Positions 2,922 to 21,563 of a stretch of DNA of 22,076 bases are shown piece after piece. The stretch lies in the IMG/VR virus record IMGVR_UViG_3300044714_000012, positions 1-22,076 of that record; one strand, written 5' to 3'. The notes beneath the pieces were generated by a model. The model was not told the origin of the DNA. It made no database searches and saw nothing but the letters and a program-made list of their open reading frames with translations. This DNA is from a virus. The translations under genes and the position numbers were made by a program. Numbering within the stretch: the first letter of the stretch is position 1; every line of letters begins with the position of its first letter.

Positions 2922-3157
2922 TGGCGGAACAGCCGCATACCGAGTCCGTCTGGGATGAATTCAACCGCTCGATCCCTGATCTGGTCAAAGCGCGCGTCGA
3001 ATTGGACGCATGGGCGAACGCCTGGAGGATTGTCCTCGAAATCGCCGATCATCATCCGGACGCGACCCCCGCGATGATGGTCCGCGCGTTCTATGTCGCG
3101 CTGCGCGACCGCGGGATGTCTGTTCCGTGGCCGCGCCGCTTTGGGAACCCGCCCTGA
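2921..3157 (+). CDS. Small hypothetical protein in neck cluster
   Basis: The protein is 78 residues, with its start overlapping the previous stop as TGATG and its own stop overlapping the next start the same way. It looks mostly helical (e.g. ELDAWANAWRIVLEIADHH) with a Trp/Pro/Arg-rich C terminus. No membrane segment or known motif is seen. Tight coupling between the gp6-like adaptor and the joining protein suggests a neck or head-completion function, but no specific role can be assigned. Confidence 0.6.
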   Translation: MAEQPHTESVWDEFNRSIPDLVKARVELDAWANAWRIVLEIADHHPDATPAMMVRAFYVALRDRGMSVPWPRRFGNPP

Positions 3158-3555
3158 TGCCGCTGCCAAAATCGCCGCCGATCGGCACCTTCCGCAACCT
3201 CGCGCTGATCCAGCTGTGGCGCGACGTCCCGGTGGACGACGAACAGTCCCTGCCGGGGTATGTCGACATCGCCTCGGCCTGGTGCTCGATCGTCGCGACT
3301 GCCGGCGACGTGTTGTGGTCCGGCGGGTTTGCGACTGCGGAGCGCCCGACGCATGTCCTGTCGATGCGCTATCGCGAGGACCTGACGCACGAACATCACA
3401 TCGTCGTCGCCGGACAGCGTTTCCGCATTCTGCGGGTGCAAAAGGACGATGCGCGCCGCTTCATCCGCGTCGACTGCGAACTCTATGGCGACGCCTCGAT
3501 GGTCGCCCGGCCGCCTGCGCTGCTCCCCGTCGCGCCGATCCCGGAGGATTTCTGA
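3157..3555 (+). CDS. Head-tail joining protein (stopper-like)
   Basis: This 132-residue protein resembles the phage head-tail joining family (SPP1 gp16-like stopper). It is a small beta-barrel with a segment giving W-C-S-I-V, a central R-Y-R-E-D-L-T-H-E-H-H-I-V-V-A-G-Q-R-F-R-I pattern, and a C-terminal strand. The 'H-x-I-x-x-x-G-x-x-F-x-I' pattern is the hallmark I used. ATG 3157 overlaps the previous stop; the longer frame upstream is a shadow over the preceding gene. In this family the protein plugs the portal channel after DNA packaging and gives the docking surface for the tail terminator. Confidence 0.78.
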   Translation: MPLPKSPPIGTFRNLALIQLWRDVPVDDEQSLPGYVDIASAWCSIVATAGDVLWSGGFATAERPTHVLSMRYREDLTHEHHIVVAGQRFRILRVQKDDARRFIRVDCELYGDASMVARPPALLPVAPIPEDF

Positions 3556-3556
3556 A

Positions 3557-3730
3557 ATGCCGCTCGGTCTGCTGTTCTGGGTCTTGATGATCCTGTGGCT
3601 CGTATTTGGGTTCTGGCAGTGGCGGCCGAACCTCCCAACGAATTACGCGCCGTTTGGCGGCCACATCCTGTTGTGGATTCTGTTGTTCATTATCGGCTGG
3701 CGCATCTTCGGTTTTGTGATCCAGGGGTAA
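3557..3730 (+). CDS. Small membrane protein with two transmembrane helices
   Basis: The protein is 57 residues, starting at ATG 3557, one base after the previous stop. Residues about 3-20 (LGLLFWVLMILWLVFGFW) and 36-55 are strongly hydrophobic, separated by a short polar, Pro/Asn-rich turn, so it should be a helical hairpin in the inner membrane. It is not a head or tail component by its nature. A membrane hairpin inside a neck cluster could be a superinfection-exclusion or holin-like accessory protein. No family is recognised, and the single-codon neighbours and good Trp/Leu content argue for a real gene. Confidence 0.6.
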   Translation: MPLGLLFWVLMILWLVFGFWQWRPNLPTNYAPFGGHILLWILLFIIGWRIFGFVIQG

Positions 3731-3736
3731 AGATCG

Positions 3737-4000
3737 ATGGTCGAGCAAATCCATCCGGAACCAATGCTGCAATTCTTTGCCTATGATCATCTGCCGTCGA
3801 ATTTGCAGATGGTTAGCCGTGAGTTCTACGAATTGGCTTGCATCGTCGCTCAGACTTTGCCGCGCAATCCGGAACGCACTGTCGCCTTGCGCAAGTTGTT
3901 GGAAGCCAAAGACTGCGCGGTGCGCGCCGCGATCTACAAAGACGACACCGGCGCGACTGCGCGAGCGGCGCTGTCCGGAGAGCCGTTCCTGAAAGGCTAG
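3737..4000 (+). CDS. Acb2/Tad1-like hairpin protein (candidate anti-CBASS/anti-Thoeris sponge)
   Basis: This 87-residue all-helical protein has F13-F14-A-Y16-D-H-L-P20, then a first helix near 24-41. A conserved-looking second helix follows, containing L41-P-x-N44-P-E46-R47-T-V-A-L-R52-K53-L-L-E56-A-K58-D59. The pattern 'LPxNxERTxALRKLLEAKDxAVRA' is one I associate with phage proteins of the Acb2/Tad1 helical-hairpin family. Characterised members form hexamers that soak up cyclic nucleotide signals of CBASS (Acb2, T4 Vs.4) or Thoeris (Tad1). The gene lies among capsid/neck genes, and other members have also been reported within late structural regions. Ligand-binding activity here is inferred from family resemblance. 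The alternative is an uncharacterised helical phage protein sharing only the hairpin. Confidence 0.68.
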   Translation: MVEQIHPEPMLQFFAYDHLPSNLQMVSREFYELACIVAQTLPRNPERTVALRKLLEAKDCAVRAAIYKDDTGATARAALSGEPFLKG

Positions 4001-4002
4001 GG

Positions 4003-4416
4003 ATGCAGCTGTCCGTCAAAATCGACGTTTCCTATGTCCAATTCGACCGCAAAGCGGTGCGCGCCGCGTCGCGCAAGGGCGGACAGCAGATGCGCGCCGA
4101 AATCCGCAAGCGCGGTGGCGGCCGCGGGGTGTCGCCGCCAGGATCACCGCCAGGACGCCGCACCGGGGCATTGTGGCGCTCGGTCTATGGCCGCGCGTCC
4201 GCCAGGGGCTACGCGATGGTCGCCGGGACCGCCGCCACGCACGGCCATTTCCTCGAATTGGGGACGCGCCGAATGGACGCCCGTCCGCTCGTTCAGCCCG
4301 CGTTCGCTGGCAAGCAAAGCGTCATCATCGGGCTTTACCGCGACGCGATCGGCAAGGGGATCACCGCGACCGTGGGCTCGCCCGGACAGCCGCCGTCCGC
4401 CGTCGAGATCGGATGA
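4003..4416 (+). CDS. HK97 gp10-like head-tail / neck protein
   Basis: The protein is 137 residues, beginning at ATG 4003 two bases after the previous stop. Hallmarks of the gp10-like family are present: a basic N-terminal helix (KAVRAASRKGGQQMRAEIRK), the loop S-P-P-G-x-P-P-G-R-R-T-G-A-L, then 'GHFLELGTRRMDARPLVQPAF'. The pattern H-x-x-x-x-E-x-G-T-x-x-x-x-A-R-P-x-x-x-P-A is very characteristic. Family members sit between head connector and tail terminator and are needed for completing the head-tail junction. The last 4 bases overlap the next small gene. The longer open frame upstream overlaps the Acb2-like gene and is not used. Confidence 0.82.
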   Translation: MQLSVKIDVSYVQFDRKAVRAASRKGGQQMRAEIRKRGGGRGVSPPGSPPGRRTGALWRSVYGRASARGYAMVAGTAATHGHFLELGTRRMDARPLVQPAFAGKQSVIIGLYRDAIGKGITATVGSPGQPPSAVEIG

Positions 4417-4565: not shown

Positions 4566-4789
4566 TGGCGGCCGACCTTGCCTCGCTTTCCTCGCAACCC
4601 GGCAACCTGTCGTTCTGGGGGCCGGATCAGCGGATGATCATGATGATCCGCTTTGATACCGAACCGGTGCGGATCGAGGTCGCCGAGGGCGTCGCCGTCG
4701 ACGACGCCGCAAAAGCGGTGCTCGCCGCAATGGGGCATTTCATCGAACAGGCGGTCGAGGCCGCGGCAACCCGACGAATGGCGCGCTGA
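4565..4789 (+). CDS. Small hypothetical protein
   Basis: The protein is 74 residues, with ATG 4565 overlapping the previous stop and its own stop directly abutting the next start. The N-terminal part is polar, followed by a beta-like segment (MIMMIRFDTEPVRIEVAEGVAV) and an Ala-rich helix (AAKAVLAAMGHFIEQAVEAAA) with a basic end. No family is recognised. The tight packing between a membrane-protein gene and the tail terminator supports translation. It could be a small neck or tail-completion factor, but nothing in the sequence proves this. Confidence 0.55.
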   Translation: MAADLASLSSQPGNLSFWGPDQRMIMMIRFDTEPVRIEVAEGVAVDDAAKAVLAAMGHFIEQAVEAAATRRMAR

Positions 4790-5389
4790 ATGGCCGGCCG
4801 CCTCGACATGTCGGACCTGATCGCCAAGCTGCGCCGATCGACGCCCGCGCGCGCTTTCTTTGCCGACCGCATCGCCGGGGTCGCGGACGAAAACCGCGTC
4901 GCCGAATATGCCAATCTCGAACCGCCTTGCGCTTATGTCGCCTATGTCGGGGATAGCGCCGTCCCCTCCGATGCGATTAACGAGAACGTGCAATGGGTGA
5001 CGGAAACCTGGGCGATCCTGGTCAAGCTCGCCGCGCACGAAGAAATCCGCGGACAAGCGCCAGCAATGACAATCCCCGCGATCCGCCGCGCGATCTTTAA
5101 AGCGATCTTCAACTGGAGCCCGACGACAGGTTACACGCTCTTTGCCTATGGCGGTTCCAGCTGCATTGGGATCAGCCGCGACGTGACGATTTGGCGGTTT
5201 CTGTTTACGACGCGCACGCAAATCGACGAATGCGACGGCGAAACCGAAGAACAATTCGACCCGTTGCCAGGGTTCAAGGGGATCGATGTGATCGTCGACA
5301 CGATCGACCCCCACGATCCGGGCCTACCGCCCTCGGAAGAATATCGAGAATACTGGTTCGACCGCCGCGATCCGGAAGGGACACCGTAA
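4790..5389 (+). CDS. Tail terminator-like protein (Mu gp37-like)
   Basis: The protein is 199 residues. The middle has the terminator-family pattern P-P-C-A-Y-V-A-Y-V-G-D-S-A, then Q-W-V-T-E-T-W-A-I-L-V-K-L, a helix (TIPAIRRAIFKAIFNW) and a last beta hairpin. It follows the stopper and gp10-like genes, exactly where a tail terminator is expected, and in Mu gp37 occupies the equivalent place before gp38 and sheath. Terminators cap the tube when it reaches full length and dock to the head. The last ~40 residues are acidic and Pro-rich (DPLPGF...PPSEEYREYW) and look like an extension. Start ATG 4790 directly follows the previous stop. Confidence 0.72.
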   Translation: MAGRLDMSDLIAKLRRSTPARAFFADRIAGVADENRVAEYANLEPPCAYVAYVGDSAVPSDAINENVQWVTETWAILVKLAAHEEIRGQAPAMTIPAIRRAIFKAIFNWSPTTGYTLFAYGGSSCIGISRDVTIWRFLFTTRTQIDECDGETEEQFDPLPGFKGIDVIVDTIDPHDPGLPPSEEYREYWFDRRDPEGTP

Positions 5390-20976: not shown

Positions 20977-21222
20977 ATGCGCAGCAATGGAACCCTGGGC
21001 TATGGCGACAACAGCGTCTCGGTGCAACTCGACGCGTCGCAGCCGATCGAGATCACGTTGACTGCCGGCGGCTGGAATGCGGTCCTGAGCATGATCGCGA
21101 AAGCGCCGTGGGACGTCGCTGATCCCTTTATGCAAGCGATCCGCCGCCAGATAGCGATCGCCGTCACGCCACCGTCCGGCGCCGCGGAGCAGACGCAAGG
21201 CGGGCCGAGCAACGACCGATGA
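20977..21222 (+). CDS. Small hypothetical protein
   Basis: The protein is 81 residues from ATG 20977, with aaggga at 20961-20966. Beta strands ('SVSVQLDASQPIEITLTAGGWNAVLSMIAK') precede a helix and a Gly/Pro/Gln tail. No family recognised. Its stop overlaps the next start (ATGA), so it is co-translated with the HNH gene. Its position after the fibres could suggest a fibre assembly or accessory function, but nothing else supports that. Confidence 0.6.
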   Translation: MRSNGTLGYGDNSVSVQLDASQPIEITLTAGGWNAVLSMIAKAPWDVADPFMQAIRRQIAIAVTPPSGAAEQTQGGPSNDR

Positions 21223-21563
21223 GGAACGCGCGCCCGCCGCGGTTCCGCGCGCCGTGGCTACCCTCGCGCGCTGCCTCGCTCGCCGCCTTCCGCCAGGAGC
21301 AACGCCGCTGGAACCCGCAACCGCCCGCAGCTGCACGCGGGTACGATCCAGCCTGGAGCGCGCTGCGCGCCCAACATCTCGCCGTCGAGCCCAACTGCCG
21401 AAAATGCGCGCTGCGGGGCGTCGAGACGTCCGCCAGGATCGTCGATCACGTCGTCCCGGTGCGCGTCGCCCCCGAGCGCCGCCTCGATCCGACAAACCTG
21501 CAATCGCTCTGCTGGCCGTGCCACAACGCCAAAACTCAACGGGAAGTACGCGCGCGACGATAG
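21219..21563 (+). CDS. HNH endonuclease
   Basis: The protein is 114 residues from ATG 21219. Two Cys pairs (C60/C63 and C98/C101) frame 'V75-D-H77', 'NLQSLCWPCHNAKT' with N93, H102 and N103: the classic HNH metal-binding fold with zinc knuckles. Residues before about 40 are a basic, Pro-rich leader. In many phages (e.g. HK97 gp74) an HNH nuclease lies next to terminase and helps packaging; here it follows the fibres and the terminase may be outside the window. A stand-alone homing or packaging nuclease are both possible. Confidence 0.85.
   Translation: MRNARPPRFRAPWLPSRAASLAAFRQEQRRWNPQPPAAARGYDPAWSALRAQHLAVEPNCRKCALRGVETSARIVDHVVPVRVAPERRLDPTNLQSLCWPCHNAKTQREVRARR

Follow-up and report, generated by a model that had tools for sequence, protein, structure and literature searches.

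Between positions 3737 and 4000 of the window, by which we mean the whole stretch of 22,076 nucleotides analysed here (IMG/VR virus record IMGVR_UViG_3300044714_000012), lies a small gene embedded among genes for head completion and the neck. Its 87-residue product contains LPRNPERTVALRKLLEAKD, and the open reading frame and motif singled out by the initial annotation are therefore both present. The features of the locus are as follows.

3157..3555, plus strand: head completion / head closure protein (context; PF05521, 6.8e-11; phrog_25)
3557..3730, plus strand: membrane-like open reading frame of 57 aa, just upstream, without a match in Pfam or PHROG
3723..3727, plus strand: AGGGG, a likely ribosome binding site that lies 9 bases ahead of the ATG, read from the sequence
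3737..4000, plus strand: Acb2/Tad1-hairpin-related gene (phrog_1761 family), 87 aa, ATG start, TAG stop
4003..4416, plus strand: neck / HK97 gp10-like protein (context; phrog_5, 2.4e-12; PF04883, 0.038, below cut-off)

The gene is tightly packed, with gaps of 6 bases upstream and 2 bases downstream. It had been placed between a joining protein and a gp10-like gene, and both of these flanks can be identified (by PF05521 and phrog_5), but the 57-residue membrane-like frame at 3557-3730, which had gone unmentioned, intervenes after the head completion gene. Operon position makes late expression likely in the window phage; a promoter-like site was looked for near the gene and none was found. Other members of the family occupy early or accessory regions, and timing is consequently not a family trait.

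Several further observations concern the neighbourhood. Loci L038, L040, L045, L046 and L070 resemble the window (3557-3730) in encoding, close to the family gene, a small membrane-like protein with two helices (GLLFWVLMILW...LLWILLFIIGWRIFGF). A fixed module with this upstream protein was considered and rejected, since its homologues were found near the family gene in only five of 80 relatives' loci. Elsewhere in the window, the product of 1333-2301 combines a CBM_5_12 carbohydrate-binding module with a collagen-like repeat and is probably a tail or receptor-binding accessory. The product of 4790-5389 falls in phrog_209, labelled 'portal protein', yet matches the Pfam Phage_tail_terminator model at 3.2e-17, and the PHROG label looks wrong for this family. 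Near the right end, 21219-21563 encodes an HNH endonuclease (PF01844, 1.9e-10), in a record that also has Mu-like gp45, sheath and tube proteins.

The 87-residue protein belongs to a large family without an assigned function. It matches phrog_1761 (E 3.9e-28) and phrog_5120 (E 7e-20), its own family, for which PHROGs gives no function; these matches establish that 3737-4000 is no chance reading frame. A tblastn search at E <= 0.01 matched 308 phage records, and one pattern scan confirmed the family in at least 312 viral contigs. Its hosts are tailed phages of different types that infect Proteobacteria and Actinobacteria, where the gene adjoins lysis genes, stands near capsid, baseplate or structural genes, or occupies the early and accessory regions mentioned above. 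One member, in Ochrobactrum phage vB_OspP_OH (MT028492, 40098-40289), is annotated as an 'anti-TRAP domain-containing protein', which is probably a misannotation.

The family has a near-invariant core. Residues 42-54 are invariant in 70 distinct relatives while nearly all synonymous codons are in use (for example, six Arg codons and four Pro codons), a combination that indicates strong purifying selection on the protein. The invariance at residues 43-50 is inflated, because relatives were fetched partly by a pattern inside that stretch, but residues 51-54, 56, 58, 59 and 63, which lie beyond the pattern, are equally invariant. The invariant residues of helix 2 include R52, K53, E56, K58, D59 and R63.

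The initial annotation had linked this protein to the Acb2/Tad1 family of signal sponges. As a statement of membership the link is not supported. A Pfam search with the window protein returned no match at E <= 1, including to PF24729, the Acb2/Tad1 hairpin model (cut-off 27 bits), and PF24729 matched none of 52 close relatives. In a sister subgroup (LPDGPEKSAGLRKLLEAKDC), seven of 31 sequences match the model, the best at 20.1 bits (E 7e-4), below the cut-off of 27. The same model readily recognises its positive controls, giving T4 Vs.4 (Acb2) 71.4 bits (E 7e-20) and a Tad1-like consensus 92.7 bits. When PDB sequences were searched with the single protein and with three alignments of the family, the only matches were to designed proteins or were coincidental helical ones, and a PADLOC search gave no match for the window protein. 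A Dps-like identity suggested by NCBIfam (E 0.006, far below cut-off) was rejected as helix composition. Acb4, a tetramer-forming protein with a beta-sheet at its centre (PMC11722364), was likewise set aside as unlike the all-helical window protein.

As a statement of remote homology, the link holds up better. PF24729 contains a Tad1-like, hairpin-only core with the consensus FTYHPP...SREQSLALTKLEEAVMWANAAIARNE (PF24729 E 1.6e-26). Against the PDB, this consensus matches Tad1 entries at E 0.23 and, more strongly, 9ptq, 'Acb2 homolog 43' (E 0.005); we take 9ptq, together with Tad1 itself (7uav, 8smd, 8kbe), to be the solved relatives of this branch. Queries of the PF24729 type, drafted from a consensus, served as leads only, the sequences compared being real loci; the core alignment comprised 35 Tad1-like hairpins and the PF24729 protein of locus L040. 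In profile-profile comparison, the window family matched this core with a probability of 92.5% (E 4.9e-7) and the sister subgroup with 91.5%. Canonical Acb2 reached 21% against the same core, a value that is itself weak, because among 200 shuffled versions of canonical Acb2 one scored above Acb2 itself. When the columns of either the window-family or the sister-subgroup alignment were shuffled, none of 200 shuffles reached the observed score, and further controls (60 shuffles, a reversed alignment and a few unrelated small families) fell far below it.

Individual sequences tell a similar story. Against phrog_1454, the PHROG of the Tad1-like core (core E 2e-28), the window protein scores E 5e-4, and T4 Acb2 is about as good at E 7e-4. 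The first bridge seen to PF24729 was a sister-type gene of Brevibacterium phage AGM3, and a search of the records of PF24729 carriers with the family profile found a Tad1-like hairpin gene at E 7e-5 (the record of locus L290). Common ancestry of the window family with the PF24729 core is thus supported at the level of sequence profiles. The link to canonical Acb2 is seen only through the Tad1-like core, because hhalign of the window family directly against canonical Acb2 gave 0.3% and 0.1%.

The likeness to the Tad1-like branch (phrog_1454) extends to hairpin length and to the N-terminal start, where an aromatic-x-aromatic pair with His and Pro reads FAYDHLP in the window protein and FTYHPP in the branch. 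Both share the helix 2 motif P-x2-x-E-[KR]-[ST]-x-A-L-x-K-L-x-E-A, across which the profile alignment is ungapped. The two differ at the end, which is a conserved WANAAIARNE in the Tad1-like branch and DCAVRAAIYK in the window protein. Further, a conserved Thr of the branch is Arg52 in the window protein, and the window protein stays below the PF24729 cut-off. With Acb2 (Pseudomonas phages PaP2 and PaMx33; T4 Vs.4; phrog_717), it has in common a short N-terminal helix followed by a two-helix hairpin, a Tyr at the GY position and an invariant Arg near the end of helix 2. In contrast, the GYR and NxIK motifs of Acb2 are absent from the window protein.

The helical hairpin that had been read from the sequence is borne out as a prediction. 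AlphaFold2 with the family alignment places helices at residues 9-14, 21-40 and 45-79 (mean pLDDT 88.5), the same arrangement as the short helix and hairpin described for the Acb2 protomer (PMC12043709). Tad1 carries an N-terminal beta-sheet domain before its hairpin (PMC12043709); AlphaFold2 predicts no beta-strands in the 87-residue window protein, and a Tad1-type domain is accordingly absent from the model. When the model was compared with a viral structure library, ranks 1-6 were taken by what look like members of the family, several coming from phages that the family search had also found; 13 of the best 50 matches carry Acb2/Tad1 hairpin names, at probabilities of up to 1.00. Structural comparison with Acb2/Tad1, which had been proposed as a check, was thus positive in the viral library, but Foldseek and VIA-align searches of the PDB listed unrelated hairpins for the window model, with Acb2/Tad1 missing among the matches listed. 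A control model of canonical Acb2 found the solved Acb2 and Vs.4 structures in the PDB (8h2x, 7uq2, 8h2j) and, in the viral library, an overlapping set of viral Acb2/Tad1 proteins. Helical hairpins readily match one another, and the missing PDB match is no evidence of a different fold.

Genomic position provides a separate line of comparison. In three pairs of viruses, the window family and canonical Acb2 occupy the same slot. The first lies between tail sheath and tail tube, with the family gene in L027 and Acb2 in L202. The second follows the portal gene and precedes two small genes, a scaffold-like gene and a major capsid-like gene (L056 and L212, respectively). In the third, topoisomerase and a small gene precede the slot and rnlB lies further downstream, with the family gene in ZZ1 and Acb2 in Ac42, both T4-like Acinetobacter phages. 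The sheath, tube, portal and capsid names in the L loci are our own reading of the sequences. Random positions in the same loci gave a mean of 0.57 loci sharing a slot, and 1.8% of trials reached three; as the criteria were set after the cases had been seen, slot sharing is suggestive only.

The two kinds of gene can also occur in one genome. In L040, a PF24729 gene (4601-4822, 34.9 bits) stands two genes upstream of the family gene (4995-5204), in an interval after the major capsid-like gene and with a small DUF3309-like membrane protein between the two hairpin genes. This phage may carry two different hairpin sponges together. A separate PF24729 gene above the cut-off was present in one of 50 records carrying the window family, and the window family in none of 50 PF24729 records, where the sole match was the PF24729 gene itself; these base rates are too low for exclusion to be called. 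At L167:3001-3261 (Pseudomonas phage PaMx41, NC_055711), the acb2 frame has an internal stop and only a short open reading frame is annotated, which fits the loss of Acb2 reportedly published for this phage.

In the dinucleotide pocket of T4 Acb2, Phe82 stacks on the base and the substitution Y8A disrupts binding (PMC12657218), while T68M lowers affinity (PMC12657230). T4 Acb2 also triggers Panoptes (VnOptSE) by taking away its nucleotide (PMC12657218). Aligning T4 Acb2 with the window protein through the Tad1-like core gives the following counterparts.

3782..3784, plus strand: codon of Tyr16, aligned with T4 Acb2 Tyr8; aromatic in 70 of 71 sequences
3890..3892, plus strand: codon of Arg52, aligned with T4 Acb2 Thr68; Arg in 71 of 71
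3923..3925, plus strand: codon of Arg63, aligned (less certainly) with T4 Acb2 Arg79 and with the Arg that is invariant in canonical Acb2; conserved as Arg in 71 of 71
3935..3937, plus strand: codon of Tyr67, one residue past the T4 Acb2 Phe82 position (a less certain assignment); aromatic in 63 of 70

Of the T4 dinucleotide pocket, therefore, the aromatic at Tyr8 is kept, Thr68 has become an invariant Arg and Phe82 is shifted by one. The Phe82 position aligns with Ile66 and is aliphatic, the aromatic following one residue later, although the end of helix 2 was aligned by hand, ungapped, beyond the confident part, which leaves the counterparts of Phe82 and Arg79 less secure. A pocket that is conserved but rebuilt would argue for a related binding mode with a different ligand range. 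In particular, replacement of a conserved pocket Thr by an invariant Arg suggests a ligand range unlike that of T4 Acb2.

On the tests applied, the family falls within neither Acb2 nor Tad1 and is best seen as a new sister branch of that kind. Profile-profile comparison, structure comparison and shared genomic slots argue for kinship, while PF24729 returns no match, direct comparison with Acb2 fails and two of the three T4 pocket positions are changed. The window protein is thus supported as a relative of Acb2/Tad1 that probably works like them. We favour, with some reserve, the view that it belongs to a sister family of the Acb2/Tad1 sponges that has so far gone unrecognised, has an altered pocket and probably sequesters a nucleotide signal of immunity. 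On the superfamily pattern, the small all-helical protein would form an oligomeric ring of hairpins, probably with six copies, whose conserved Arg, Lys and aromatic residues would bind a small anionic nucleotide signal from a bacterial defence system. Candidates are a cyclic di- or trinucleotide of CBASS or an ADP-ribose signal of Thoeris. Sequestering the signal without cleaving it would keep the effector of CBASS, Thoeris or a similar system switched off.

The altered pocket also allows for an Acb2/Tad1-descended hairpin that has been repurposed, so that its partner is no nucleotide signal but a host protein or a nucleic acid; it might, for instance, inhibit a defence enzyme directly. The change of two of the three pocket positions, Thr68 to invariant Arg among them, speaks for such a protein, and helix 2 is polar and unusually rigid in sequence, as a protein interface could be. 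We nevertheless think repurposing unlikely: the aromatic at the Tyr8 position is retained in all but one sequence, slots are shared with canonical Acb2, and a core that stays near-invariant over such a breadth of hosts is more readily explained by a small ligand that does not change than by a host protein that diverges.

That the protein plays a minor part in the virion, or in assembly of the head-tail neck, is suggested by the setting of the window gene, closely spaced inside the head completion-neck cluster, and by the capsid, baseplate or structural neighbours of the gene in other phages. This appears distinctly improbable, as relatives adjoin lysis genes and occupy accessory regions across tailed phages of different types, one is found in the interval from topoisomerase to rnlB in a T4-like phage, and Pfam and PHROG searches found no match to known neck families. 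The resemblance to Acb2/Tad1 might, lastly, reflect convergence of generic helical hairpins in an unrelated phage protein, as the want of a direct sequence match to PF24729 or solved Acb2/Tad1 and the unrelated hairpins listed by Foldseek would allow, but we hold this to be very doubtful, given that no column shuffle attains the observed profile score, that the profiles align without a gap across the helix 2 motif, that bridging sequences exist and that Acb2/Tad1 proteins are specifically enriched in the viral structure search.

Returning to the sponge reading, we speculate on a bolder form of it, which we regard as possible though somewhat unlikely: that the family is a third large branch of hairpin sponges beside Acb2 and Tad1, in which an invariant Arg52/Lys53/Arg63 pocket would sequester a signal that neither of them binds, and which has passed for a hypothetical protein in hundreds of Proteobacteria and Actinobacteria phages. 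The link to sponges provides a direct and cheap hypothesis for hundreds of unannotated hypothetical proteins. If their ligand differs from those of Acb2 and Tad1, the family could point to an undiscovered immune signal or defence system.
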